A stretch of DNA of 64,000 nt from an uncultured bacterium (GTDB lineage Bacteria > Cyanobacteriota > Vampirovibrionia > Gastranaerophilales > Gastranaerophilaceae). The translations under genes were made by a program, and so were the position numbers. Location: the NCBI GenBank assembly GCA_902795965.1, contig CADBNI010000031.1:1-64000 (forward strand), given 5' to 3'. Position 1 is the first letter of the stretch; each line of letters begins with the position of its first letter. Below are positions 4,965 through 64,000 of the stretch, one piece after another. Under the pieces are notes generated by a model that had not been told where the DNA came from, ran no database searches, and saw only the letters and a list, made by a program, of their open reading frames with translations.

Positions 4965-5984
4965 ATGGGCAAAAAACATTTAGGTTTTACTTTAGCGGAA
5001 GTTTTGATTACCCTCGGCATAATCGGAGTAGTCGCGGCGGTAAGCATGCCTATTTTGATTCAAAATGTGAATGAACGGGTTAATTCCGAACGCGAGGCAA
5101 ATATTGCTTTTAAAATTAATCAGGCAATGGAAAAAATGAGAGCGTTAGGACTTTTGAATGCAAGTTACGGTTCAACAGAGGCATTTGTAGATGAATTACA
5201 AAACCATTTAAAAATCGCAAAACGTTGCGATAGCGCACATATCGCAGAATGCTGGCCTACAGCTACCGTTATTGATACAAACGGTGAAGAATATGACGTA
5301 AGTAAAGCAAAAACAGGAAAAGATTTGCAGTTTAAAGACAGAACAACACCTAATGTAGGTCTTGTTCTTGCAGACGGTGCTTCGATAATTCTTACTTATG
5401 ACCCGAATGCTTCTACTTATGATGTCGGCGATGCGATATCTGCAAACAAAGAAGGTAATGCAATCGGCGGAAAGTTTTATACAACAAACTTAACTTCGGG
5501 TCTTGCATACGTTACTGATGTAAACGGCAGAAAAGGGCCGAACAGTCAGGAAACAAACAAGAAAAACGACATCAGAAGTTTTAACGGGGCAGCATTTGGA
5601 ACGGGTTGTGCAGGCAAAATGTCAAGCGGTGACAAATGTGTATTCCAAGTACAATCACCTGGATATGTAAATTGTGCCGATACAACAAGTGATGACTATA
5701 CAAAATATTGCGGACCTCATCCGAGTGGTTATTCAAAAGATTATTGGGCTGGTACTAAAAAAGCATGCAAAAGTATGGACATGGAGCTACCTGAAGAAGG
5801 TGACCTTGTGAGTCTCATGAAAAACGAAACCTGGGAAGGCAAACCTACATCCGGCTACTTTTGGTCGTCCACGGAGAACTCCGACGGTCCTCAGAGCAGC
5901 GCGAAAGTCGTGTACTACAATGGCGGTACGGGCTACACCACCAAGAATAACCGCAATACCGGGGTTGTGTGTGTAGGTAAATAA
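4965..5984 (+). CDS. Pilin-like protein with C-terminal lectin-like (DUF1566-type) domain
   Basis: A 339-residue secreted or surface pseudopilin. The class III leader MGKKHLG is cut before F8 of FTLAEVLITLGIIGVVAA, with the required Glu at mature position 5. A family motif DVNGRKGPNSQ lies near residue 185. The last 90 residues (KACKSMDMELPEEGDL, then YFWSSTENS and VVCVG) look like the C-type-lectin-like DUF1566 fold. Bases 5850-5980 are far richer in GC (about 60% at 5881-5940) than the rest of the gene, as in variable regions of diversity-generating retroelements. It is divergently paired with an XRE gene. Confidence 0.85.
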   Translation: MGKKHLGFTLAEVLITLGIIGVVAAVSMPILIQNVNERVNSEREANIAFKINQAMEKMRALGLLNASYGSTEAFVDELQNHLKIAKRCDSAHIAECWPTATVIDTNGEEYDVSKAKTGKDLQFKDRTTPNVGLVLADGASIILTYDPNASTYDVGDAISANKEGNAIGGKFYTTNLTSGLAYVTDVNGRKGPNSQETNKKNDIRSFNGAAFGTGCAGKMSSGDKCVFQVQSPGYVNCADTTSDDYTKYCGPHPSGYSKDYWAGTKKACKSMDMELPEEGDLVSLMKNETWEGKPTSGYFWSSTENSDGPQSSAKVVYYNGGTGYTTKNNRNTGVVCVGK

Positions 5985-13529: not shown

Positions 13530-13727
13530 CGGGTAGTCTTTGGGGATTTTCCAACCGTTTAACCGGATTATTGCAGTACAATACGCTCTATCAAGTGAAG
13601 TAGGCAATTCCGGTTTACACCCAAACGTAGAACTTGTTTTCAATACGTTTTCACTTCCGTTCCAACTGATTTTATACGGCTCTACAAGCCTGTTAATATA
13701 TATATGATTATTAGATACCCCGACTTA
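13527..13727 (-). pseudogene. C-terminal remnant of a pilin-like gene
   Basis: On the minus strand this stretch reads about 65 codons to a stop and ends ...AYCTAIIRLNGWKIPKDY, PLKF. That is clearly the same ending as the pilins at 36561 (NGWKIPKDYPFKVK) and 45301 (NGWKIPNDYPYKVR). No start, leader or FTLAEV segment exists: an in-frame stop lies just upstream and repeat DNA follows. It looks like what remains of an eighth pilin gene after deletion of its 5' part and its regulator. It overlaps the kdsC end by three bases. Confidence 0.75.
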
Positions 13728-13737
13728 GGAGCATCCT

Positions 13738-13777
13738 TAAGACAAGATTCTGAAACAAGTTCAGAATGACGTGAAGG
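13738..13777. repeat. Short dispersed repeat, family B
   Basis: The stretch AGATTCTGAAACAAGTTCAG followed by AATGAC belongs to a second family of small palindromic repeats, whose ends read like GTCATTCTGA and GAGATT. Related copies are at about 23925, 27988, 38799 and 50899. It is followed by a run of TGAAACG-type heptamers (13793-13825). Confidence 0.5.
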
Positions 13778-13844
13778 ACGGAAAGTCTGTTGTGAAAAGT
13801 GAAACGTGAAAGGTGAAAAGTTCTTTACAGTCAAGATTGAACCC

Positions 13845-13917
13845 CCACCCGAATTTCTAACGCTCCGCGTTGAAATTCTGCCCTCCCCCATGGGGAGGGT
13901 TAGGGAGAGGGGCTGTA
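13845..13917. repeat. Palindromic repeat element, family A
   Basis: Here the core is GAATTTC-TAACGC-TCC-GCGTT-GAAATTC, a different sequence from the copy at position 14 but still self-complementary, flanked by CCCCCACCC and by CCCTCCCC / GGGGAGGG. It fills most of the gap between the pilin remnant and the intact pilin gene. Confidence 0.7.
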
Positions 13918-13929
13918 TATGACAAATCG

Positions 13930-14691
13930 CTATTTTTTGCATTTTGTTTTGCCCGTCCAAGACAGGTCATCACAATGCAGGTAGTCCATATTACCATTTG
14001 TTATAATCCAACCCGCGCCGTTATCTCCGCTACCCGTTTTATCCATTATGCTCTGCAAAGTTTCTTGAGCCTTTTCTATACTACCTCTATGAGCAGGTGT
14101 ACCAAACGGAATAAGTTTATCCTTCAGCAACAAAAAGCCGAAAGAGTCCTTTCCTTGTACATTAGGCTTTTTATATCCGTTTAAATCAACACTGACAAGC
14201 CCGCAAACCGTTGTATGTCCCTCACTGTTTTGGTATGTACATGTCGGAGAATATACTGCCAACCTTACAGCCGTACCGTCACTCATTACAAAATTCGATA
14301 TTCCGCAAACATTTGCCCAATTCCCAACTCGTTTCCAATTATCCTCCGCACCCGAAAGAGTTGCATGATTATCGGCAAAACAACTAAAATCACCTGTCGT
14401 AGTACACTCTTTTGTAATGTTAAGATACTGTTTAAGTATATGAACCCAATCGACGGATGCTGCAATTTTATCCTCGTTATCCGACCATTCGGACATTTCA
14501 CCGTAATCAACTTTTGCATGTTCTATTGCCTGCGAAAATGTCGAATAAAATTTCTTCAGTTTTACAATATTTTCCTGTTCCTGATGTTTTTGTACCAATA
14601 CGGGTATGGTCATTGCCGCCACGACACCGATAATCCCGAGGGTGATTAAGACTTCGGCAAGCGTAAAGGCTTTTGTATTTTTTCTGTTCAT
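13930..14691 (-). CDS. Pilin-like protein (cassette 2)
   Basis: A 253-residue pseudopilin with leader MNRKNTKA and cleavage before F9 of FTLAEVLITLGIIGVVAA. It has the family segment QKHQEQENIVKLKKFYSTFSQA after the membrane helix and the motif DLNGYKKPNVQGKDSFGF at about residues 175-195. Several cysteines could form disulphides outside the cell. The ribosome-binding site GGAGG is six bases before the ATG. It is divergent from the XRE gene at 14827 and expressed from an exact consensus promoter flanked by 17-base repeats. The C-terminus lacks the NGWKIP ending. Confidence 0.88.
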   Translation of the reverse strand: MNRKNTKAFTLAEVLITLGIIGVVAAMTIPVLVQKHQEQENIVKLKKFYSTFSQAIEHAKVDYGEMSEWSDNEDKIAASVDWVHILKQYLNITKECTTTGDFSCFADNHATLSGAEDNWKRVGNWANVCGISNFVMSDGTAVRLAVYSPTCTYQNSEGHTTVCGLVSVDLNGYKKPNVQGKDSFGFLLLKDKLIPFGTPAHRGSIEKAQETLQSIMDKTGSGDNGAGWIITNGNMDYLHCDDLSWTGKTKCKK

Positions 14692-14722
14692 AATTCCTCC
14701 TTATTTTGTACTCTTTATTTTT

Positions 14723-14770
14723 ATTATAACGCATATTATACCCTTTGTCAATATATAACGCATATTATAC
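14723..14770 (-). promoter_or_regulatory. Pilin promoter and twin operators, cassette 2
   Basis: On the minus strand, TTGACA (14746-14751) and TATAAT (14723-14728) are 17 bases apart. Two identical 17-base copies of TATAACGCATATTATAC (plus strand) lie at 14725-14741 and 14754-14770. One covers the -10 box and spacer, the other sits just upstream of -35. Each copy contains the inverted arms TATAA and TTATA. The 29-base spacing is close to three helical turns, which fits two dimers binding on one face. Confidence 0.75.
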
Positions 14771-14826
14771 GTGTAATATAACAAAGTTGCGCTATAAAAT
14801 CGAAAAGGGGTCATAAGTGAGGTGTT

Positions 14827-15144
14827 ATGGATATTATAAGTTTGAAGGAAACAGGATTGTTAATCAGGACACACAGACTTTTGAAGGGGTTGACACAATT
14901 TCAGTTAGCCGAAGCCGTTGAAATGGACGAAAAGCAATTAGGCAAAATAGAACGCGGTCTGCATTATCCGAATGTTGCAACTTTTTTGAAAATAATAAAA
15001 AAATTAGATATTAATGTAGAAAATTTTTACAAATCCAAAACCACATTTCAAAATAGTGAAAACCTGAACAATTTATTGCAAAAAGCTACGGCAAAAGAAC
15101 TTGAACTTACATATATATTCTTAAAAACCATTAAAAATATGTAA
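14827..15144 (+). CDS. XRE-family HTH regulator paired with the pilin at 13930 (cassette 2)
   Basis: A 105-residue protein with a helix-turn-helix at about residues 9-63 (LIRTHRLLKGLTQFQLAEAV, then LGKIERGLHYPN) and the C-terminal tail KATAKELELTYIFLKTIKN. The tail is nearly the same as that of the regulator at 55309 (TATPKELKKYLTIIKTIKE). It is divergent from the pilin gene, with twin 17-base repeats between them. Probably the cassette's repressor, and possibly autoregulated. Confidence 0.85.
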   Translation: MDIISLKETGLLIRTHRLLKGLTQFQLAEAVEMDEKQLGKIERGLHYPNVATFLKIIKKLDINVENFYKSKTTFQNSENLNNLLQKATAKELELTYIFLKTIKNM

Positions 15145-15196
15145 CGTATTTTTGAAATGACTGATTTTGTGGTATTATTGACTTGAGGAGAGGAAA

Positions 15197-15556
15197 ATGT
15201 TTGAGATTAAGACACAGGCTTTTTTTGCGGCAGCACATCATCTTTTGAACTACGAAGGAGAATGCGAAAACCAACACGGGCATAACTGGCTCGTTGAGGC
15301 TTGCGTACAAGGAGATACGCTCGACAAAAGCAACATTTTGATTGATTACAAAGTTTTAAAACGTGAACTTAAAGCGGTTCTTGACCTTTTGGATCATAAA
15401 GATATTAACGAATTGCCCGAATTTAAAGGCGAAAGCCCGTCAAGTGAAATGATTGCATGTTTTATTTACAACAAACTGAAAGAAAAAATCGTGCAGTTGA
15501 GCAAAGTTTCCGTTTGGGAAACTCAATCCTCCTGCTGTTCGTATTTTGAAGAATAG
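15197..15556 (+). CDS. queD: 6-carboxytetrahydropterin synthase QueD
   Basis: QueD makes 6-carboxy-tetrahydropterin, the second step of queuosine synthesis. The 119-residue protein has the zinc ligands in FFAAAHHL and QHGHNW, the catalytic Cys in GECENQHGH and the Glu of WETQSSC near the C-terminus. QueC, QueE and QueF are not in the window and no preQ1 riboswitch is seen in front. The ribosome-binding site GAGGAGAGG is strong. Confidence 0.92.
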   Translation: MFEIKTQAFFAAAHHLLNYEGECENQHGHNWLVEACVQGDTLDKSNILIDYKVLKRELKAVLDLLDHKDINELPEFKGESPSSEMIACFIYNKLKEKIVQLSKVSVWETQSSCCSYFEE

Positions 15557-16485: not shown

Positions 16486-16565
16486 AAATTGTAAAATTGA
16501 TTGGATTTTACTGACAAAAAATAATATTTACGTGCATTTTATTATAGGAAGTCGTGTGGAGTAAA

Positions 16566-17573
16566 ATGATTTTACCTGTTAACAGTATAACCTTTTCTGC
16601 AAATGACAAAGACAAAAAGTCTTTGGAATATACCCATGACACTTTGTTGAAAAATAATATCGCAACACGCATGCGCATTGGGGTAGACAAAGTTACCAAC
16701 GCATTTACCGTTTATCCGGCAAAGGGAATGAAGGGAAGTAAGAATGCCAATTTTTACGAATTTTTGACAATGGGAACGGTTCCGTATCTTTTGGGCAGCG
16801 GGACTTTGATGATGATGTTTAACGGAACAAGCAAGCATTATGCACCGTTCCAACGTGTTATGTCGCGCGAAACGGGGAACAAATTGGCAATGGGAGTTTT
16901 GTTCTACGGAATTATGAAATCCGTTTCAAAATCTTTTGTCAGTGAACCCGTCAAAATGCTCACGGGCGTTGATACCGAAAGACCTTATGCAAAAGTAATT
17001 TACGAACTTCCTGAAGATATCAACGACACCGACATTATGAGCATTGAACATCATAAAGTATTTGAAAGTGTGGAATTTCCAAGATGGGATTTGCTTTACG
17101 GTGACGAGGTAAAGGGAGAAAAAAGAAATTACAGATACGACAAAATTGCAAAAAAATTAGGACTTGGCAGTAATTTGAACGATTCGGATCAGGAAGTCAA
17201 GCCGAAAATTAAAAATATTGTTGTAAAATCAAATCTTGCCAAAAACATTTCGTCATATCTTTGGGCGGCAGTCGGTGTAGGATTGGCTTTTCAAGAACCT
17301 TGGGAAAAATATTTCCAAGTAATGACATTTAAATTTTGGAAAGGCAAACAGTTTGGCAAATCTTTAAAATCTTTCGGAAAGAGTTTTGTTGAAAGTGCAA
17401 AATCGCTTTGGACAGGCAAAGGTAAAGGAGTTGAAAAACATGCCGGCAAAATGCTTGTCGGAATTGCGGCTTTATCAACGATTTTAGGGGTAATAAATTC
17501 CGTTACGGGGATTAAAAAACCCGCAAAAGCCTCGGAAATAGTTAAGAAAAATGAGGGATATGTAAAAGCATGA
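16566..17573 (+). CDS. Unrecognised membrane protein, first gene of an amylase-containing operon
   Basis: About 335 residues. The N-terminus MILPVNSITFSANDKDKKS is short and polar, then a basic region follows, with hydrophobic stretches at about residues 58-77 (FLTMGTVPYLLGSGTLMMMF), 98-112, 228-245 and 292-310. No signal peptide and no family recognised. The ATG at 16566 has GGAG five bases upstream; a GTG at 16554 (after TAGGAAG) would add four residues. It overlaps the next gene by four bases (ATGA), so the three genes to 21789 are translationally coupled. A membrane partner of the GH13-like protein is a guess from context. Confidence 0.7.
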   Translation: MILPVNSITFSANDKDKKSLEYTHDTLLKNNIATRMRIGVDKVTNAFTVYPAKGMKGSKNANFYEFLTMGTVPYLLGSGTLMMMFNGTSKHYAPFQRVMSRETGNKLAMGVLFYGIMKSVSKSFVSEPVKMLTGVDTERPYAKVIYELPEDINDTDIMSIEHHKVFESVEFPRWDLLYGDEVKGEKRNYRYDKIAKKLGLGSNLNDSDQEVKPKIKNIVVKSNLAKNISSYLWAAVGVGLAFQEPWEKYFQVMTFKFWKGKQFGKSLKSFGKSFVESAKSLWTGKGKGVEKHAGKMLVGIAALSTILGVINSVTGIKKPAKASEIVKKNEGYVKA

Positions 17574-20083
17574 GTACCAACTTAATTCAAAATTACATAT
17601 CCAAACCCGTTACTTCGACACAAACTCAAACCAAGCCGAAGCCTCAATTTGACATTCAGCAGGAACTCAATAACAGAACATTTATAAAACCGCTTCGTGC
17701 AAAAGGTACATTGTTAAACGGTAACATTTTTGCCTCTCCGAAGTACGCTTTTGACAACACGATTTACAGTATAAAAGCTATAAAACACGCAGCAGCAGGT
17801 AATGCCAACGACCACGAATTAGGTAAAATAAATGATGTAGGGCTTGTCGGAGGCGGACTTGCCATTGCTGGCTATTTATTTACAAGACGGACAACTCCGC
17901 TTACAAAAGGATTGGAATTTGTAGGTTTGGGAACATTTCTTGCATCAATGACCATTTGGCCGAAAGTTGCAATTCAGCTCCCTGCGTATTTAATTCATGG
18001 TGTTAATGTTCAGAAAAAATATCAGGACAGTTTTGGCAGAGTAAAACCTTTTTATCAGGATCCGCAATTTATTCCCTGGGATTTGTATTCTGATGAAGAA
18101 ATTCAAAAAATCGGAAATCGTTTGAGAGTACCGAAAGATATTCCTAACCGCAGAGATTTCATTCAGGAAAAAATGAAAAAAATTGCCGTTCAAAACAATA
18201 CTCTTTGGATGCTTACGGCAGGATTTGCACCGGCAATAATGACTGGGTTGGTATGTAATGGGGTTACTCCTTATTTGAACAGATATTTGGATGAAATCAA
18301 GAACAAAAAAGCCGATAATATTTTGGCAAATGTAGAAAAAGCCTCCAAAAAATATCAAACACACCCGATTGAAAACGCGATAAAAGAAATAACCAAAACA
18401 AACGGCAACAAACCGATTACGAGAGAATTGACAGAGCAGATTGCAGATGTGTTTGCAATACATCTTGACCCCGTTACCTCGGAAAGTTTCAGAAAAGATT
18501 TGTCAACCTTCCTTTGGGACGGAAAATATTCAATTACCGAACAAACAGCAAAAGATACCGCAAAAAATATAACGGAAGTATTTAGTAAAGGTTTCTCGGA
18601 AAATTTCTTGAAAGAAGTGCTTCCGAATGAAGAACAGATGTTACAACTTTTCCGCGATAACAATATAGTCGGAACATCATTAAAACCCGTAGAATTTAAA
18701 AAAGTTCAGGACATAGTGGTTAACGAAATAATTAAAAGAGCGGAAACATTTAATCAAGCCAACCCCGATAATGCAGAAGACATAAAATATATTAAAAAAG
18801 TTATCAACTCACACACGACGAACGAACATCCGATTATCAAAGCATTGTCAACAACTCGCTCCGCAATATTGGATTCCGCCGTTCAGACAAAATTGAACAA
18901 TACGGCAAAAATCTTTGATGATTTCAAGGCGAAAAACCTTGCCCTTGATGAATACGCTCTAATCAAAACGGGTTCTGCTCCCGAAACAGTAATTGCAAAC
19001 TACTGGAATGACGTATCGGGTGAAATCTTAAAAACTCTCGGTATTCAATACAAAGATATTGAAAAAATAAGATTTGACCGAAAACTTATGGGCAATTTGC
19101 TTCGTGAACGACTTGAAACAATAGCATCCGATAAAGCTGCTTACGAAAAAGTAATGAAGAATTTGGTCGAAAAAATTTCGACAATAAACACAAAAATTAA
19201 ATCGGGTGATATAAATTCTCACATGCTCAAAGGAGATTACACTCCGACAGCTTATGAAGAAAAAGTTAACACTATTTTTACGGAATATGCATCCGAAATT
19301 CGCAAGGCAGGATTTAACAGAACGGCAGATGCTATTGTCGGCAAAAACGGAAATGAAGCAGGCTCTTACATAGCCGTCCAAAAAGCATTTGCCGAAGAAA
19401 GAATGTTAGGAGTAAAAAGTTCGTTCTTCAGACTGCTCAATACATTGGACTTTTTCAGAAAAGTTGCTGACGACCCCAATGCATTGAGAACATTCAATAA
19501 AGTTCCGCGCGAGGTTAAAGAAGAACTTATTGAAATGTGCAAAATCATCAGTCTTGAAGGTCACTCGTCCGACCATGCCACAAAATTCTACATGATGAGA
19601 AATCCTTCACCCAATGCCGACACAAGCCCGTTAGAAGTTAAGAACGGTAAAATCGTCAACAAATATTTCGGCAAAGCAAACGGAACAACGGATATTCCGG
19701 GTGACAAATTCTTCTATCAAAACGGAATGAATTTTATGTTCGGTGACGGAATTCATAAAGACACTCAAACAATTATTGATAACAGCAGTATTAACGAAGA
19801 ATTTGCAAATTACAGACGACTTGTATTTGAAAAAGTTGGCGGAGAAGAATACTTCTGGAAAAAACGTCACAAAGTATTCGGCTATTCTGACGTTGGTTCG
19901 GATATCAAATTCCTTTTGACGGGTATCGCCCCCGACGAACTTATTTTCAAAACAGGTCAACAGCACTTTAACACAACCAAATGGCTCAAAACATTCGGCT
20001 ATTTTGGTGCGGGATTATTGGGAGTAACAGTTTTGGCTCAATTCTTCTTCGGAAGAATGAAAAATCCGGAGGTTAAAAAATGA
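17570..20083 (+). CDS. Large unrecognised protein with membrane segments (837 residues)
   Basis: The N-terminal 30 residues are Thr/Gln/Lys-rich and probably disordered. Hydrophobic segments lie at about residues 85-100, 112-142 and 211-230, and another near the C-terminus (about 808-828, YFGAGLLGVTVLAQFFFG). Between them is about 570 residues of charged, mostly helical sequence with no motif I can name. The C-terminal tail is short and basic. It overlaps its neighbours by four bases on both sides, so the operon product may form a complex. Base composition is like the rest of the window, with no sign of recent transfer. Confidence 0.7.
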   Translation: MSTNLIQNYISKPVTSTQTQTKPKPQFDIQQELNNRTFIKPLRAKGTLLNGNIFASPKYAFDNTIYSIKAIKHAAAGNANDHELGKINDVGLVGGGLAIAGYLFTRRTTPLTKGLEFVGLGTFLASMTIWPKVAIQLPAYLIHGVNVQKKYQDSFGRVKPFYQDPQFIPWDLYSDEEIQKIGNRLRVPKDIPNRRDFIQEKMKKIAVQNNTLWMLTAGFAPAIMTGLVCNGVTPYLNRYLDEIKNKKADNILANVEKASKKYQTHPIENAIKEITKTNGNKPITRELTEQIADVFAIHLDPVTSESFRKDLSTFLWDGKYSITEQTAKDTAKNITEVFSKGFSENFLKEVLPNEEQMLQLFRDNNIVGTSLKPVEFKKVQDIVVNEIIKRAETFNQANPDNAEDIKYIKKVINSHTTNEHPIIKALSTTRSAILDSAVQTKLNNTAKIFDDFKAKNLALDEYALIKTGSAPETVIANYWNDVSGEILKTLGIQYKDIEKIRFDRKLMGNLLRERLETIASDKAAYEKVMKNLVEKISTINTKIKSGDINSHMLKGDYTPTAYEEKVNTIFTEYASEIRKAGFNRTADAIVGKNGNEAGSYIAVQKAFAEERMLGVKSSFFRLLNTLDFFRKVADDPNALRTFNKVPREVKEELIEMCKIISLEGHSSDHATKFYMMRNPSPNADTSPLEVKNGKIVNKYFGKANGTTDIPGDKFFYQNGMNFMFGDGIHKDTQTIIDNSSINEEFANYRRLVFEKVGGEEYFWKKRHKVFGYSDVGSDIKFLLTGIAPDELIFKTGQQHFNTTKWLKTFGYFGAGLLGVTVLAQFFFGRMKNPEVKK

Positions 20084-21789
20084 TTAGTCCCGTAATGACA
20101 AGTATTTTAAATACATACAGAGTGCCGAATTTTCAGGCGGAAACTCCTGCCAATGAAGTTAAGCAAACAAATTCGGGACTGTTAAACGCTTATTTGAACA
20201 ACCTTGCAATGATTAATGCACCTGCCGTTCAAAAAACGGAAACCTCAGCACCCGTAAATTATCACAACAATTTGAGAACTCTTTTTGTAAATAATCAGGC
20301 AAAAATTTTGGCAATTATTCCGAGGACTTTTAATGCAAAAGACACTAACGGAAACGAATACATTGACGGAAATGAATTACACGGAACATTTTTGAACGCA
20401 ATCGAACGGCTTGACGAGGTAAAAGCTCAAGGGTTTAATACCCTTCATATTCTTCCTATACATCCTACAGGAAAAATGAAGGCAATGGGAACTGCGGGTT
20501 CATTATATTCTCCTAAAGATATGCTCGCAATCGACCCGAATTTGATTGACCCGAAAGATCCTCGAAGCGACAAAGAACAGTTTAAAGCATTTATTGACGA
20601 ATGCCATAAGCGCGGAATTAAAGTTATGATTGATATGCCGAGCTGTGCTTCTTACGATATGTTTTTGGAACACCCCGAATGGATGGCTATGGAACGTGAC
20701 GGACTTGCTAAAACTCCGCAGGGCTGGAACGATATCAGAATGTTTCAACCTTGGGAGGACGAAGGCAAAAGAACACTAAACCCCAAACTGCTTGAGCTTC
20801 ACAAAGAATATGTTGATATGTGCATTGATCTCGGTATTGACGGAATCCGTTCGGACGTTGCAAGGGCGAAACCCGTTGAATTTTGGGACATAATTATACC
20901 TTATTCAAGAATGCGCGATCCCGAATTTGCTTGGCTCGGTGAAACTTATACTTACGAAGATGCTTCTCCGCAGGCGAATATGCCCTATGACAGACCGCAG
21001 GATTCTTTACGTGCGGGGTTTGATGCGATATACGGTCAATATCACATTTTCCACGAATGGCCTGATGCAAAAACCTTTATGGATTATGTAAAAGAACAAC
21101 TTGACATGTCTTACAAACTTCCGAAAGGCAAATCTTTAATCGGTTCTTTTGCAACACATGACGATATTTCACCAATGTTTCACGGCGGAGTTGATTATTG
21201 CAACCTGACAATGGGATTGCAGGCAACGTTACCGATGCTTAACCCCTACATTGTTGACGGATATCAATCGGGGGATTACTATTTGTATCCTTATGAGGCA
21301 AAACAAAACCCCGTAACTCAAACCGACAATCACGAAATGACGGTTCACAGAGGCAGGCTTGATATCTTCAATTTTTCAAGAAAACCCGGCGGTAAAAACC
21401 CCGAAATCGGTAATTTTATGAAAAGTGCGTTTGAGCTTAAAGACAAATACGCAGACGTTATAAACAAAGGTACTTTCATCGAACTTGAAAAAACAGGTGA
21501 TAAGACCGACCAAATTATAGCTTACGCAAGACATCTGAACGGCAAAACCCTTCTTGTCGTTGCAAACAAAAACGTAAACCGTCCGATAGCTTGCAAAGTA
21601 AAAGTTCCGACTCTCAAGAAAGACCAAAAACTTGAAAATCTTCTGCCCTCTTACGGCAAAGAAAGTATTCTTCAGGCAAGAGAAAACGAATTAGCCGTAA
21701 ACCTCGGCCCTGCAAGAGTTCACGTTTTTGAAATCGACACCCCGCATATAGAAAATTACACAAGAAAAATTTACAAACAAAATATATAA
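20080..21789 (+). CDS. GH13-like (alpha-amylase family) protein
   Basis: A 569-residue protein with the GH13 barrel from about residue 105. The nucleophile Asp is in GIDGIRSDVARAK (about 259), the acid Glu in WLGETYT (about 288) and the region IV HD in ATHDDISP. Region I is unusual (VMIDMPSCAS), without the common NH. An EF-hand-like loop DTNGNEYIDGNE lies at about 88-99. No signal peptide is seen; the start MISPVMTSILNTYRVPNFQA resembles other N-termini here. Probably acts on alpha-glucans, substrate unknown. Last gene of its operon, followed by a terminator. Confidence 0.8.
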   Translation: MISPVMTSILNTYRVPNFQAETPANEVKQTNSGLLNAYLNNLAMINAPAVQKTETSAPVNYHNNLRTLFVNNQAKILAIIPRTFNAKDTNGNEYIDGNELHGTFLNAIERLDEVKAQGFNTLHILPIHPTGKMKAMGTAGSLYSPKDMLAIDPNLIDPKDPRSDKEQFKAFIDECHKRGIKVMIDMPSCASYDMFLEHPEWMAMERDGLAKTPQGWNDIRMFQPWEDEGKRTLNPKLLELHKEYVDMCIDLGIDGIRSDVARAKPVEFWDIIIPYSRMRDPEFAWLGETYTYEDASPQANMPYDRPQDSLRAGFDAIYGQYHIFHEWPDAKTFMDYVKEQLDMSYKLPKGKSLIGSFATHDDISPMFHGGVDYCNLTMGLQATLPMLNPYIVDGYQSGDYYLYPYEAKQNPVTQTDNHEMTVHRGRLDIFNFSRKPGGKNPEIGNFMKSAFELKDKYADVINKGTFIELEKTGDKTDQIIAYARHLNGKTLLVVANKNVNRPIACKVKVPTLKKDQKLENLLPSYGKESILQARENELAVNLGPARVHVFEIDTPHIENYTRKIYKQNI

Positions 21790-22672: not shown

Positions 22673-22708
22673 ATGTTGAAGATTAAAAAAGAAAGGAGCA
22701 AATTATGA
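22673..22708 (+). CDS. Possible 11-residue leader peptide coupled to the pilin gene
   Basis: An ATG with its own ribosome-binding site (AAGGAGCGA) begins MLKIKKERSKL. Its stop TGA overlaps the pilin ATG (ATGA), and the pilin's own ribosome-binding site AAAGGAG lies inside it. The order fits translational coupling of the pilin to the short peptide. Chance cannot be excluded for so short a frame. Confidence 0.4.
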   Translation: MLKIKKERSKL

Positions 22709-23388
22709 AGAAAGGCACTAAGAGAAAAGTAGCGTTCACGCTTGCCGAAGTTCTCATTACCCTTGGCATAATCGGAGTTGTTTCGGCAATAACAATACCG
22801 ACACTTATTCAAAATTACAAAAAGCATGAAGCAACATCAAGATTAAAAAAATTTTACAGTGCTATGTCACAGGCAGTTTTGCTTTCCGAAAACGATAACG
22901 GACCCGTATTCGGTTGGAGAGAAGGTAATAATGGCGATATACAAGATGAAAACGGGGACTACGACCACAATGCACAGGCGGATTTTTCTTGGAACTACTG
23001 GACAAAATATCTTGCACCGTACATAAAATATACTAAAGCCGAAAAAGGCATTTATGATGAAGAAAATCCCGACAAATTCTATGAAACAAAAGTTTGGCTT
23101 GCTGACGGAACAACTTTTACACTTCATAACGGCGGAACAATGGACGTAAATGTAGACATCAACGGAGAAAAACAACCTAACGAGGCAGGACGTGACCAAT
23201 TCGGATTTATGATAAATACACAAGAAAAAATTTGGGGTAAAAAACATTTCAGTGCAACATATCAATATTGGAACAGAGATACTGCCCAAAATGAATGCAA
23301 AAACAAACAAAATCCTTTAATGTCATGCGGACGTTTGCTTGAAATAGATAATTTTGAATTTAAATCGGATTATCCGTTTAAACTATAA
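22705..23388 (+). CDS. Pilin-like protein (cassette 3)
   Basis: A 227-residue pseudopilin: basic leader MKKGTKRKVA, cleavage before F11 of FTLAEVLITLGIIGVVSA, then TLIQNYKKHEATSRLKKFYS and a soluble domain with the motif DINGEKQPNEAGRDQFGFM (about residues 151-169). Two cysteines near the C-terminus may pair. It ends FEFKSDYPFKL, a diverged form of the DYPFK ending of other copies. It is divergent from its XRE gene and followed by a bidirectional terminator shared with the YajQ gene. Confidence 0.88.
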   Translation: MKKGTKRKVAFTLAEVLITLGIIGVVSAITIPTLIQNYKKHEATSRLKKFYSAMSQAVLLSENDNGPVFGWREGNNGDIQDENGDYDHNAQADFSWNYWTKYLAPYIKYTKAEKGIYDEENPDKFYETKVWLADGTTFTLHNGGTMDVNVDINGEKQPNEAGRDQFGFMINTQEKIWGKKHFSATYQYWNRDTAQNECKNKQNPLMSCGRLLEIDNFEFKSDYPFKL

Positions 23389-25755: not shown

Positions 25756-26532
25756 ATGACTAAAAAATCAAGTTTTACAATGGCGGAAGTTTGGGAAAAT
25801 TTATCAGCCCCCACCCTCCCCCATGTGGGAGGGAAGAATTGCTTAATGAGCAGAGCGAATTTAGCAATTCGGGAGTGGGCTTCTGCTAAAGGTTTTACTT
25901 TAGCAGAAGTATTAATTACATTAGGCATCATCGGCGTTGTAGCGGCAATAACAATGCCTGTCATAAAAAGTAAAATTGAAAAAATCATTCTCAGACAACA
26001 ATTCTTAAAGCAATACAACAATATTGTTTCAATAAGAAAAATTATCGAAACCGAAAGTGGGGATATTATACAGTGCTACGCTATAAGTTTACCTTTTAAG
26101 GCTTTTAACACAGATTGTAACTCTTTTTGGACATCGTTTTTTGAAAAAACAAAAGTTGCAAAAACCTGTCGTTACGGTTCGGAAGGTTGTTCTCCTACAT
26201 ACAAAACAATGGAAGAAGTTGCGGCAGAAGGCGGAAGATACAACGGCACAAGAGAGTATATCGACAAAAAAGCATACACTGCACACATTTTAGCTGACGG
26301 TGCAATTATTTATGTCCCAAATGACTACTGGGTAAAATATGCATTTTTCATTGATGTAAACGGTTCTAAAGCTCCCAATAAATACGGTTATGACATGTTT
26401 CACGTAGTTTTGCACAAAAACGCAACAAAATTGACTGATGTGCCATATCCTATTTGGGAAAAAGGCGGCAGAAGAATAAAAAATATGTTATTAAACAATG
26501 ATGATGTAAACAGCAGCCTTTTTACAGAGTAA
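25756..26532 (+). CDS. Pilin-like protein with a repeat inserted in its leader (cassette 4)
   Basis: A 258-residue pseudopilin. The membrane helix begins at F47 in KGFTLAEVLITLGIIGVVAA. The 46-residue leader is far longer than usual: residues about 19-44 come from a family A element (25804-25882). Before it lies a second pilin-like start, SSFTMAEVW (residues 5-13), as if the leader was split and copied. The later motif is DVNGSKAPNKYGYDMFHV (about 197-214). Ribosome-binding site AAAGAGAGTTAA. Whether prepilin peptidase cuts after residue 6 or 46 is open. Convergent with nadE, one base apart. Confidence 0.85.
   Translation: MTKKSSFTMAEVWENLSAPTLPHVGGKNCLMSRANLAIREWASAKGFTLAEVLITLGIIGVVAAITMPVIKSKIEKIILRQQFLKQYNNIVSIRKIIETESGDIIQCYAISLPFKAFNTDCNSFWTSFFEKTKVAKTCRYGSEGCSPTYKTMEEVAAEGGRYNGTREYIDKKAYTAHILADGAIIYVPNDYWVKYAFFIDVNGSKAPNKYGYDMFHVVLHKNATKLTDVPYPIWEKGGRRIKNMLLNNDDVNSSLFTE
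25804..25882. repeat. Family A palindromic element inside a pilin gene
   Basis: Read on the minus strand it runs CCCACTCCC, the core GAATTGCT...AGCAATTC (perfect 8-base arms), then TTCCCTCCC and GGGGGAGGGTGGGGGC. It is in frame with the pilin and makes up much of its leader. Confidence 0.75.
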
Positions 26533-36560: not shown

Positions 36561-37454
36561 TTATTTAACCTTAAACGGGTAGTCTTTGGGGATTTTCCAA
36601 CCGTTTTGCATAATAGCAAATGTGCAATAACAATTATAATATGAGTTTTTATTACAAGAAAAATTTCCACCCTCATACATATTGTCAAAATTCTGATGTA
36701 AGCCATGCGCATAAGGCATAAAACCTTTTCTGTAATGAAAATAATCAGTAGTTACATTTTGAGCAAATCGAAATATAAAAAAATTTTTACCGCTATCACT
36801 GTAATCGCTAAAAGTATTCATATTAAAATTTTTAGCATTAGGGTAGAAAAAATAATCGGCATTGGAACCGTATCCCACATTCATAACTTCACTTTCATTA
36901 TCATTTTCATCTTTTACTACCTGCATATATTTACTTATTAACAAACTGCCGTCAGGTAAATAAATTTTGTTGTATGTATAATTGTTATCTTTTATGCGTT
37001 CAATTTTTACAACCTTAATATACGGAGCAAAATATTTATTCCAAAAATTTTCATCACTGAAATCCCAATCCTCTTTTGCTCCATAATCAGCCTCAGCTCT
37101 CTGAATAGCTTGATTCATAATCGTATAAACTTTTTTTTTTCTTTTTTCGACAATTATGTTTTTACATTTTTGTACAACAACAGGCAATGTCATTGACGCC
37201 ACAACACCGATAATGCCGAGGGTGATGAGGACTTCGGCTAAGGTAAACGCGAAGCGTTTACGTGAAAAGACTTTATCGGGTATTGAACCCCTCACCCGCA
37301 TTTGTACGGCTCTTTCATCTCCTACAAATGCACCCTCTCCCCGTTGGGGCGAGGGTAGCTTATTCAACGATAACAGCCGACCTTCTTGCCCGCCGTTCTT
37401 CCTGCCCTCTAAACTCAGCTTCTTAGCTGCCTTTGACTTAGCTGCTTCTTTCAT
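36561..37454 (-). CDS. Pilin-like protein with a 69-residue leader (cassette 5)
   Basis: A 297-residue pseudopilin. FTLAEVLITLGIIGVVAS begins at F70 after Ala 69. The good ribosome-binding site GAGGAGCAAATT supports the start at 37454, so the leader is really long. Residues about 32-58 (KLPSPQRGEGAFVGDERAV) come from a family A repeat at 37274-37352. The soluble domain has many Tyr and Phe and ends with a four-cysteine segment and MQNGWKIPKDYPFKVK, the ending shared with the copy at 45301 and the remnant at 13527. Divergent from the XRE gene at 37543. Confidence 0.86.
   Translation of the reverse strand: MKEAAKSKAAKKLSLEGRKNGGQEGRLLSLNKLPSPQRGEGAFVGDERAVQMRVRGSIPDKVFSRKRFAFTLAEVLITLGIIGVVASMTLPVVVQKCKNIIVEKRKKKVYTIMNQAIQRAEADYGAKEDWDFSDENFWNKYFAPYIKVVKIERIKDNNYTYNKIYLPDGSLLISKYMQVVKDENDNESEVMNVGYGSNADYFFYPNAKNFNMNTFSDYSDSGKNFFIFRFAQNVTTDYFHYRKGFMPYAHGLHQNFDNMYEGGNFSCNKNSYYNCYCTFAIMQNGWKIPKDYPFKVK
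37274..37352. repeat. Family A palindromic element inside a pilin leader
   Basis: Left end ACCCCTCACCC, core GCATTTGTA...TACAAATGC (9-base arms), then CCCTCTCCCC and GGGGCGAGGG. It is in frame on the minus strand and lies in the same orientation relative to the gene as the copy in the pilin at 25756. Confidence 0.75.
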
Positions 37455-45300: not shown

Positions 45301-45888
45301 ATGAAAAAAATTAAAGGTTTCACCCTTGCGGAAGTTTTAATTACTTTAGGTGTAATTAGCATAGTTGCTGCCATGACATTACCCACAATCATTCAAAAAT
45401 ATCACAATCACGTTGTTGAAACAAAGTTAAAGAAAATATATACGGTTATGAACCAAGCTATGAGGCTGTCTGAAATTGACAACGGAGATAGAAAATATTG
45501 GCATGGTACAATACATAGCAAAAACGGAATTGAACAATATATTTTACCATACATAAAATATACAAAAGTTGAAGAAAATCCGGGAAATGGTGATAATGAT
45601 TTTGTATCTATATATTTTGCAGACGGTTCTATTTTAAGAGTCAGCAAAAAATGGAACGGGCAATACAACTATTACACAATGGATGTAGATAAATGCCAAA
45701 AATTTGATCATTATCAAGGACGTTGCATGTTTGCATTTGTATCATACACTGACAAATATTATTTTGAAAGTTTTTATTCTGAAAATCATGGAACATACGG
45801 TTGTAATAATACAGGAATGAATTGTGCTGCTCTTATACAATATAACGGTTGGAAAATTCCTAACGACTACCCTTACAAGGTTAGATAA
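45301..45888 (+). CDS. Pilin-like protein (cassette 7)
   Basis: A 195-residue pseudopilin, the smallest here: leader MKKIKG, cleavage before F7 of FTLAEVLITLGVISIVAA, then IQKYHNHVVETKLKKIYTV and a Tyr-rich soluble domain. It has four cysteines and the ending CAALIQYNGWKIPNDYPYKV, shared with the copy at 36561. Ribosome-binding site AAAGGA. It is divergent from an AbrB-type gene and convergent with the nuclease at 45892 (three-base gap). Confidence 0.88.
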   Translation: MKKIKGFTLAEVLITLGVISIVAAMTLPTIIQKYHNHVVETKLKKIYTVMNQAMRLSEIDNGDRKYWHGTIHSKNGIEQYILPYIKYTKVEENPGNGDNDFVSIYFADGSILRVSKKWNGQYNYYTMDVDKCQKFDHYQGRCMFAFVSYTDKYYFESFYSENHGTYGCNNTGMNCAALIQYNGWKIPNDYPYKVR

Positions 45889-54482: not shown

Positions 54483-55187
54483 TTACCAGGGATATTCGGG
54501 AGCCAACTTCCATCCGTCATACATTATTAACAATGCACAATAAAAACCTGCTCTCGAAATACTGCTCGAGTTACTGCAACCGTAATTTACATTTTGCAAA
54601 ATATCGGCTCTTTGCGGATTTTTTCCGAGTCCGTATAAATAATTACCATAACCCCACGGCATTAAACCTCCATCCTTATTAATAAGAAAGAGAAACCAGT
54701 CACGTCCGACTTTGTTCGGTGCAGCAGTTCCGTTCAAATCAATACCTAAAGGTTTGTAACCTTCCGCACCTGTACCGAAAGATAATAAGGTCCCATTCGA
54801 CAATATAACATTATAAGAATCACTAAATATCATATCATTAACAAGAACACCTGCTGCATTATTATATTGTATATTTCTGCTTTTTATCATCAAGTTTTCC
54901 GACTTGACATCTTTTAAATAATTTTTAATATATTTTGAATAAAATTCTTCACCATTAATATCATAATCCCATTCACTAACATATCCGTTGTCAATTTCCG
55001 ACATTTTTACCGCCTGTTCAAGAATACTGTATGTTTGTTTCAAACGATTTACAGTAACATGCTTTTGATAATTTTGCATTAATGTCGGTAGCGTTATTGC
55101 CGCAACAACTCCGATAATAACAAGGGTGATTAATATTTCCGCAAGAGTAAAACCTTGAAATACTTTCATACTGCCTTTAATGCTCAT
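54483..55187 (-). CDS. Pilin-like protein (cassette 6)
   Basis: About 234 residues. The leader SIKGSMKVFQG ends before FTLAEILITLVIIGVVAA. The family motif is DLNGTAAPNKVGRDWFLFL, and the ending CALLIMYDGWKLAPEYPW is a diverged form of the NGWKIP ending. Two ATGs lie together; the second (55187) has better spacing from GGAGG. An exact TTGACA-17-TATAAT promoter lies in the gap to its divergent XRE gene, with a palindrome right after the -10 box. It is followed by hldA on the same strand. Confidence 0.88.
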   Translation of the reverse strand: MSIKGSMKVFQGFTLAEILITLVIIGVVAAITLPTLMQNYQKHVTVNRLKQTYSILEQAVKMSEIDNGYVSEWDYDINGEEFYSKYIKNYLKDVKSENLMIKSRNIQYNNAAGVLVNDMIFSDSYNVILSNGTLLSFGTGAEGYKPLGIDLNGTAAPNKVGRDWFLFLINKDGGLMPWGYGNYLYGLGKNPQRADILQNVNYGCSNSSSISRAGFYCALLIMYDGWKLAPEYPW

Positions 55188-55215
55188 CATTCCTCCAATC
55201 TTTCTTGTTTATTAG

Positions 55216-62948: not shown

Positions 62949-64000
62949 GTGAAAGTAGGTTTTAATCAGGTAAAATTTAACAGGATTGGTTTTCAGGGTT
63001 ACAAACCCGTAAAATCCGAATATGGTGACAGGGAATATGAATTTAACTACGTTTATGATGACAGCAAACAAGACTGTTATCTTGAAGTATTTCTTGTCGA
63101 CAAAGACGAAAACGGAAACTATCTTATAACCGGTGAAAGAGATAATCACGGCAACGTAAAACCGATTACAAACTACAACGCAATGGTCGAAGGCAGAGAA
63201 GAATTTGCCGTAAAACTTAATCCAAACGGAGCAACTTCAATAGACCTTGCTGCAGATTACGGTATTGCGCCAAATCAGGCTTTTGCATATCACTATGTTT
63301 TGCGCCCGAAAGGCAAGCCTTTCGACACTCCCGAATACAAAATTGATGCGGGTAACGTAATTAACGAAACCAATGGCGGAAACAATCCCAACAGAATATT
63401 CAACTTGGTAACCGACAGAGCTTCCTCCTCAACAAAAGGCGGGGCAATGAAACTTATTGTTCCCGATATAAACAATGTGGCATGGGTATACGACAATTTT
63501 GAAAATAATTACAAAATAACCCCGAACAAAAATCTTGAACGCGCACGCAAAACAAACAAAAATTTTGCCAACAAAATCGGCGGTTCGCTTGCAGGTATAG
63601 AAAAAGACCTTGAACAAGGTAAACTTGACAACTTTACAAGAATAATCACAACACCTCTCTTTACCGACGACAGTCTTTCCGCTCACGCTTACTGGAACAA
63701 AAACTGTTTTCAAATGGCGCAAAGCCTCGGAAACATAAATAATTACGCATCATTACAGAGAAAAATGTTTGCAAAAGGCATGAATTTGGTTTCTGACGGT
63801 GCTTACGTAAACGAAGGACTTGAGGGAGTTCACTTCAGACACGTTTTGCAATGGGGTAAAAAATCCCCGTACTTCAACTGGTTCAGAATTTCGGGACTTC
63901 AAGACAGTCCGTTGAGCATGGGTGTGTTCGGCAAAAAAATTGACCACGTAACTCACAGAATTGTCAACTCAAAATACAATTTTGAACAAAAAGACGACGG
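62949..64000 (+). CDS. GH13-like protein, 5' part only (runs off the window)
   Basis: An open frame from a GTG start (MKVGFNQVKFNRIGFQGYKP) continues without stop to the end of the window, at least 350 residues. The first 110 residues are beta-rich, as in the N-terminal domains of GH13 enzymes. A later segment KMFAKGMNLVSDGAYVNEG resembles GH13 conserved region I. The catalytic residues would lie beyond the window. The N-terminal GFQGYKP resembles VPNFQAE of the GH13-like protein at 20080. There is no signal peptide. The start codon is uncertain: no strong ribosome-binding site. Confidence 0.7.
   Translation, partial: MKVGFNQVKFNRIGFQGYKPVKSEYGDREYEFNYVYDDSKQDCYLEVFLVDKDENGNYLITGERDNHGNVKPITNYNAMVEGREEFAVKLNPNGATSIDLAADYGIAPNQAFAYHYVLRPKGKPFDTPEYKIDAGNVINETNGGNNPNRIFNLVTDRASSSTKGGAMKLIVPDINNVAWVYDNFENNYKITPNKNLERARKTNKNFANKIGGSLAGIEKDLEQGKLDNFTRIITTPLFTDDSLSAHAYWNKNCFQMAQSLGNINNYASLQRKMFAKGMNLVSDGAYVNEGLEGVHFRHVLQWGKKSPYFNWFRISGLQDSPLSMGVFGKKIDHVTHRIVNSKYNFEQKDD

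Follow-up and report, generated by a model that had tools for sequence, protein, structure and literature searches.

GH13 enzymes that work inside bacterial cells are normally regarded as soluble. The solved structures closest to the GH13 enzyme of the locus described here, termed ORF3, are 4gkl, 1gju, 3dhu, and GlgE. The best profile match (E 2.3e-25) is 4gkl, a small bacterial alpha-amylase; the match with it and with 3dhu, an enzyme of the same kind, begins past the EF-hand-like loop of ORF3, neither amylase is known to have membrane partners, and 3dhu, unlike ORF3, retains the N-H pair of region I. The best single-sequence match in the PDB (E 2e-19) is the GH13 maltosyltransferase of Thermotoga maritima (1gju), which shares with ORF3 an N-terminal 'prt..a...g' stretch, a region I without N-H, and an R-x-D region II, but contains about 115 residues (260-376) between the matched segments for which ORF3 has no counterpart. 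To our knowledge, the Thermotoga enzyme has no membrane partners. The maltose-1-phosphate maltosyltransferase GlgE (GH13_3) was matched by the ORF3 profile at about 6e-16 over the catalytic domain up to region III, but carries about 150 extra residues ahead of the match, with ORF3 residue 100 aligning with GlgE residue 248 or thereabouts. Because the alignment offsets place this extended N-terminal region outside ORF3, the identification of ORF3 as GlgE was dropped. For ORF4, a second and far larger GH13 protein of the same genome, the best profile matches (E about 1e-30, covering the initial portion of the barrel) were the neopullulanase, maltogenic amylase, and cyclomaltodextrinase group (1sma, 2wc7, 1j0h), from which it differs in its length of 1391 aa and in its large inserts; its regions I and II are about 500 residues apart. 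Region I of ORF4 reads D-G-A-[YF]-V-N-E, which is not the usual form.

The window, that is, the whole stretch of DNA that was analyzed, comprises the first 64,000 nucleotides of contig CADBNI010000031.1 (73,376 bases) from an uncultured member of the Gastranaerophilales whose genome amounts to 1.81 Mb in 85 contigs. Coordinates of the features are given in Table 1. ORF1, ORF2, and ORF3 are all encoded on the plus strand, and the four-base ATGA overlaps that the earlier note had described were found at each of the two joints. For ORF1, the ATG at 16566, which has GGAG immediately 5' of it, is a likelier start than the alternative GTG at 16554.

Table 1. Positions in the window of the four genes and of the segments discussed in the text
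Feature	Position	Strand	Details
ORF1	16566..17573	+	335 aa; 339 aa from GTG at 16554; predicted membrane protein, about four moderately hydrophobic segments
ORF1 domain common to the ORF2 N-terminal domain	16626..17315	+	hhalign
ORF2	17570..20083	+	837 aa; ORF1-like N-terminal membrane domain (predicted), long helical middle, C-terminal hydrophobic helix
ORF1-like domain of ORF2	17693..18289	+	hhalign
C-terminal hydrophobic helix of ORF2	19994..20050	+	followed by the GH13 domain in fused proteins
ORF1/ORF2 ATGA overlap	17570..17573	+	sequence
ORF2/ORF3 ATGA overlap	20080..20083	+	sequence
ORF3	20080..21789	+	569 aa; GH13 enzyme, no signal peptide; D185, D259, E288, H360-D361
EF-hand-like loop DTNGNEYIDGNE	20341..20376	+	ORF3 residues 88-99; predicted Ca2+ site
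ORF4	62949..63998	+	first 350 of 1391 aa; runs on to contig position 67124; GH13

Conservation of the trio was assessed with a scan of genome contigs, which gave 505 relatives of ORF3; locus counts refer to the 80 loci listed. ORF1, ORF2, and ORF3 follow one another in this order in 74 of the 80 named loci listed, and the other six end at contig ends. The named GTDB matches of ORF3 are Candidatus Gastranaerophilales and Melainabacteria MAGs, some of them filed under other names. Among 58 relatives, ORF1 was found in 50 and ORF2 in exactly the same 50, while ORF3 was matched at E <= 0.001 in 54, three of these matches being weak and due to other proteins (G041, G043, G051). The trio is contiguous in the loci read from the order's other families, with the exception of one in which ORF3 lies ahead of ORF1 and ORF2 (L087), one genome in which the genes are divided between two contigs (G038, loci L077 and L078), and one locus in which ORF3 is in two broken frames (L088). 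In a class-wide search of evenly drawn genomes, ORF2 homologues were detected in 205 of 289, some of them from families f9 and f15, which do not belong to the order, and the trio itself was found in both of these families; a single genome of family f8 gave a weak ORF2 match (E 1e-4). Phylum-wide, ORF1 was matched in 131 of 292 genomes, with all matches listed belonging to families f1 and f6 of the order; none was found among the listed genomes from outside the class, 141 matchless genomes not being listed by name. Since the arrangement recurs in 74 of the 80 listed loci, throughout the order, and in two further families of the class, its conservation goes beyond chance, and the coupled operon proposed in the earlier note is borne out in relatives; the outcome named there as refuting it, a trio scattered in related genomes, was not observed. 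The gap between ORF1 and ORF2 is +1 in 53 of the 74 listed complete loci and lies within -4 to +2 in 73; that between ORF2 and ORF3 is -8 in 24 and -4 in 18, and in eight of the 74 an overlap of 32-74 bases was called. Tight packing of the genes is thus conserved, and ATGA itself is not. The suggestion that the ATGA overlaps fix the stoichiometry of the products was abandoned because gap lengths vary freely among the 74 complete loci.

The trio is not the whole system, since ORF4 also belongs to it. The gene at 62949, already singled out as related and GH13-like, extends past the window, and in this genome lies on the contig of the trio at a distance of about 41 kb; in the other genomes of the window's genus that were searched, it was not found beside the trio. 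ORF4 homologues (24-30% identity by blastp) come next after the trio, on its strand and at a distance of 34 to 311 bases, in eight genomes (L074, L078, L080, L083, L085, L088, L089, and L090); in five others (L086, L240, L241, L243, and L244), the last four of which are from outside the order, they lie upstream of it in divergent orientation. With ORF4 scored as present at E < 1e-20 and ORF2 taken from its own search of the 58 relatives, presence and absence of the two genes agree in 56 (49 with both, seven with neither; Fisher p 2e-7, uncorrected for kinship). The two discordant genomes are G053, with ORF2 only, and G050, with ORF4 only; the latter is 66% complete, and its ORF3 adjoins a contig end (L108). 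All four genes are lacking from G046 and from G051, each of which has two congeners that carry them (G054 and G055, and G036 and G056, respectively), and losses of the set therefore recur. Nearly all gut Gastranaerophilales examined hold or lose the four genes jointly, and neighborhood together with co-occurrence identifies ORF4 as a displaced fourth member of the system of the trio.

Independent evidence for physical association comes from gene fusions. In nine loci read from families f9 and f15, ORF1, ORF2, and ORF3 are adjacent in all nine (in L239 the contig ends inside ORF3), and in three of them, from three separate genera of f9, ORF2 and ORF3 form a single uninterrupted frame of 986 aa (L240), 1082 aa (L243), or 1030 aa (L244). 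The fused chain consists, in order, of the ORF2 N-terminal domain, the helical stretch, the C-terminal hydrophobic helix, and an entire GH13 domain; in two other f9 loci (L237, L241), ORF2 and ORF3 are two genes. The fusions place ORF3 next to the C-terminus of ORF2. Together with the persistence of the trio, they support, at the level of gene sequences, the earlier proposal that the GH13 enzyme and the membrane proteins act as a unit at the membrane.

ORF1 and ORF2 were described in the earlier note as two unknown membrane proteins resembling nothing recognized. Neither one, alone or as a set of 19 homologues, gave a Pfam or NCBIfam family above cut-off, and searches of the PDB with profiles of both proteins gave nothing under E 0.02. 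AlphaFold2 models, of fair to good predicted quality, are nearly all helical (ORF1, pLDDT 79 and pTM 0.75; ORF2, pLDDT 84 and pTM 0.71). Foldseek comparison of these models with the PDB returned no hit at E <= 0.001, a result that is compatible with a known fold, and the best Z scores from VIA, 6.6 for ORF1 and 7.8 for ORF2, are no higher than is common among unrelated helical proteins, with no family standing out. The description as two unknown proteins understates the case, since ORF1 and ORF2 are paralogues over a shared domain, as judged by profile comparison: ORF1 corresponds to the first 240 residues of ORF2 when the order-wide profiles (A4 against A5) are aligned with hhalign (probability 97.6, E 2.9e-12; 194 columns, or about 195 residues, at 18% identity), and genus-level profiles gave a probability of 56.7 with E 1.1e-4. 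Both are likely membrane proteins, because several hydrophobic segments are predicted in each; these segments are glycine/alanine-rich and only moderately hydrophobic (best 19-residue Kyte-Doolittle means of 1.2-1.9 for the window proteins), so that any count of spans is approximate, and net loop charges indicate no single clear topology. Assignment of the membrane side is for this reason based on the missing signal peptide of ORF3: as free-standing ORF3 has none, the C-terminus of ORF2 would, most simply, face the cytoplasm.

ORF3 scored 26.9 bits and ORF4 22.7 bits against PF00128 (cut-off 22). In ORF3, D185, R257, D259, E288, H360, and D361 are invariant in 19 of 19 homologues, and Asp259, Glu288, and Asp361 are the catalytic residues. 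In a wider collection of 187 ORF3-like proteins, the rows of which include repeat copies of one gene and secreted paralogues, R-x-D was present in 176 of 177 readable rows, Glu in 176 of 176, and His-Asp in 174 of 177. The altered region I noted earlier was found as D-M-P-S-C-A in place of the usual D-x-x-x-N-H, with the Asp retained; the family form is D-[LM]-P-S-C-A, with the N-H pair replaced by S-C-A or similar. The insert likened to a calcium loop is likewise present as the EF-hand-like loop DTNGNEYIDGNE, in which D88 and E99 are nearly invariant across the 19 homologues; it is kept in the order, reads D-x-N-x-D-G, a more classical form, in the fused proteins, and is a probable Ca2+ site on the basis of its residues. 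Catalytic motifs are damaged in a second copy at L245, which is without the region IV His, and in a distant homologue at L109, and some members may for this reason lack enzyme activity. Corresponding residues of ORF4 (Asp283, Arg818, Asp820, Glu868, His966, and Asp967) are invariant in 10 of 10 sequences.

The absence of a signal peptide from ORF3, which had been considered unusual for a glucan-active complex at the membrane, is general in the operon. The window protein has no N-terminal hydrophobic stretch, and among the 73 operon ORF3 proteins measured, the highest 11-residue Kyte-Doolittle mean within the first 40 residues is 1.27, so that none reaches 2.0. At other sites in genomes of the genus, and also in G033 and G034, there is a gene for a paralogue of ORF3, about 515 aa long and roughly 40% identical; all five copies read carry an N-terminal hydrophobic stretch resembling a signal peptide (2.28-2.97). 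Judging by these N-termini, export is probable for one branch of the GH13 group, and the operon proteins probably stay inside the cell.

At E <= 0.001, the only PF00128 matches in the genome are the ORF3 and ORF4 genes, and no ordinary GH13 GlgB or GlgX is among them. The genome does encode GlgA, a phosphorylase of the GlgP type, and three GH57 hits, and glucan metabolism therefore exists in this organism without ordinary GH13 GlgB or GlgX hits at this threshold. According to published genome analyses, fermentation of starch and glycogen is possible in these bacteria, and an alpha-amylase is listed (PMC3787301, PMC4040986).

On balance, we lean towards the view that the products of the four genes make up an alpha-glucan-active complex, tethered to the membrane and facing the cytoplasm, which a search within the phylum has so far revealed only in the class of the Gastranaerophilales. 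The paralogues ORF1 and ORF2 would form a membrane platform; ORF3, with its catalytic acids intact, would dock on ORF2, of which it is the C-terminal domain in three relatives, and would do so also in species without the fusion; and ORF4, with its large inserts, would be the second enzyme. The most likely task of both GH13 enzymes would be to remodel alpha-1,4-glucan chains on the cytoplasmic side of the membrane, alongside GlgA, GlgP, and GH57. The reaction may be hydrolysis or, given the resemblance of ORF3 to maltosyltransferases, transfer, a resemblance to be taken as a lead only. Of the 'glucan-active complex' in the earlier note, the unit at the membrane has thus held up, and glucan activity is kept as a prediction from the GH13 catalytic residues. 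A more far-reaching reading can be put forward only tentatively: the set may be a lineage-specific intracellular membrane machine, in which a new paralogous family anchors two GH13 enzymes to build, remodel, or hand over alpha-glucan, which dates back at least to the common ancestor of the Gastranaerophilales and the two further families, and which is used beside GlgA, GlgP, and GH57.

The polymer acted upon could be something other than a storage glucan. UppP lies upstream of the trio in 66 of the 80 listed loci, PanD lies downstream in 59 of the 80, and KDO-type phosphatase/isomerase genes (Kds-type envelope genes) adjoin it in the window's family; because of the UppP and Kds-type neighbors, a complex that works on an envelope-bound glucan or another glycan, made at the inner face and passed outward, is conceivable, and membrane tethering as such would suit it. 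We nevertheless regard this explanation as rather doubtful, since UppP, PanD, and the KDO genes were seen beside the trio in the window's family only, the neighbors differ beyond it, where the quartet alone is conserved, and the conserved set includes no exporter gene. The moderate, glycine/alanine-rich hydrophobicity and the ambiguous loop charges would also fit proteins that cover the surface of a storage granule or of a membrane inside the cell and recruit both GH13 enzymes there, their helices not being ordinary inner-membrane spans. GlgA and GlgP are present in the organism; the granules themselves are conjectural, however, and ORF1 and ORF2 resembled no granule protein in the Pfam and NCBIfam searches, which makes this explanation improbable. 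Accessory GH13 domains are found in the SLC3 subunits of animal transporters, and the attachment of a GH13 domain to a membrane protein, together with the loss of the region IV His from the L245 copy, would fit ORF1 and ORF2 being a transporter or channel. Such a role is very unlikely, because the catalytic acids, needless for a non-enzymatic function, are kept almost throughout the readable ORF3-like rows, and ORF1 and ORF2 matched no transporter family in the Pfam and NCBIfam searches.

The preferred reading of a cytoplasm-facing glucan-active complex combines enzymes of a known kind, GH13, with a membrane family, a gene quartet, and an ORF2-GH13 fusion that appear to be new as far as the full texts covered by a limited literature search extend; no description of these, or of such an operon, was found in them. 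A GH13 enzyme that has no signal peptide, is coupled to a membrane protein of an apparently new family and in relatives is fused with it, and shares its presence or absence with a giant second GH13 protein suggests that the processing of glucan is organized at a membrane. Since the gene set occurs almost throughout an abundant gut order of mostly uncultured bacteria, it bears on the storage or use of glucose polymers by these organisms. Through the fusion, a pair of proteins that would be annotated as hypothetical can be tested as partners of an enzyme whose class is known.

A docking peptide shared by the start of ORF2 and the linker of ORF3 was also considered. In 16 pairs, the best 11-residue score averaged 21.6, compared with 17.6 for shuffled sequences, and five of the 16 were at or under 0.03; this excess was too weak for a claim, and the peptide was not retained. 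Counts of F-x-G over all N-termini were not enriched (20 against 22.2 shuffled in G025, 26 against 21.3 in G040, and 10 against 7.3 in the window genome). An excess was confined to Asn/Ser/Gln-rich N-termini, a subset picked afterwards, with nine of 41 against 2.97 at one cut-off, and 12 of 86 against 5.9 and two of nine against 0.7 at two further cut-offs.

Many uncharacterised proteins encoded in these genomes carry an Asn/Ser/Gln-rich N-terminal tail closing with [x]-F-[KTSQG]-[GAS], and the F and G of this motif were invariant in 10/10 proteins of the ORF4 type (the large GH13 protein that is the fourth member of the system). Across N-termini overall, no enrichment of the motif was found relative to shuffled sequences. 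Within the Asn/Ser/Gln-rich N-termini, a subset picked afterwards and at one cut-off, the motif occurred in 9/41 as against 2.97 in shuffled sequences (500 shuffles, highest value 8). It may be a sorting or docking motif that has so far gone unrecognised.

A second copy of the trio (membrane proteins ORF1 and ORF2 with the GH13 enzyme ORF3) was located in a genome that also carries the fused form, in which ORF2 and ORF3 are one protein. In the GH13 protein of this copy, the His of region IV is gone (GSFLTPYDY), and the protein is perhaps a non-catalytic duplicate. An ORF3 paralogue of ~515 aa carries a predicted signal peptide, and in L099 it is adjoined by a GlgC-like gene.

In G039, the trio is followed immediately by two tandem genes (~628 aa each) with identical EF-hand-like starts (DFNKDGKVTYDDYEYAV). 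A small conserved 141-aa protein, which has a hydrophobic stretch at its centre, is encoded close to the trio in a number of genomes from the window's genus (e.g. L094, L106, L107, and L112). Seven dispersed genes within the 64 kb encode prepilin-like proteins sharing a near-identical 'FTLAEVLITLGIIGVVAA' stretch, the remaining sequence being divergent.

Coordinates of features in the window and in related loci (L) and genomes (G)
Feature	Position	Strand
Tail-bearing gene, ORF4	62949-63998	
Tail-bearing gene, ORF1	16566-17573	
Tail-bearing gene, ORF3	20080-21789	
Tail-bearing genes, other loci	L114:17821-19770; L117:1-384; L131:3289-3888; L131:8487-8834; L241:4434-7379	
Second trio copy	L245:5970-10226 (G079:C12)	
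ORF3 paralogue	G000:C8:40928-42409 (L091:6851-8398)	
ORF3 paralogue, further loci	L097, L098, L099, L100	
Tandem gene pair, G039	L079:11564-13453 and 13600-15483	
Small conserved protein, function unknown, 141 aa	24026-24451	(-)
Prepilin-like gene 1	4965-5984	
Prepilin-like gene 2	13930-14691	(-)
Prepilin-like gene 3	22705-23388	
Prepilin-like gene 4	25756-26532	
Prepilin-like gene 5	36561-37454	(-)
Prepilin-like gene 6	45301-45888	
Prepilin-like gene 7	54483-55190	(-)
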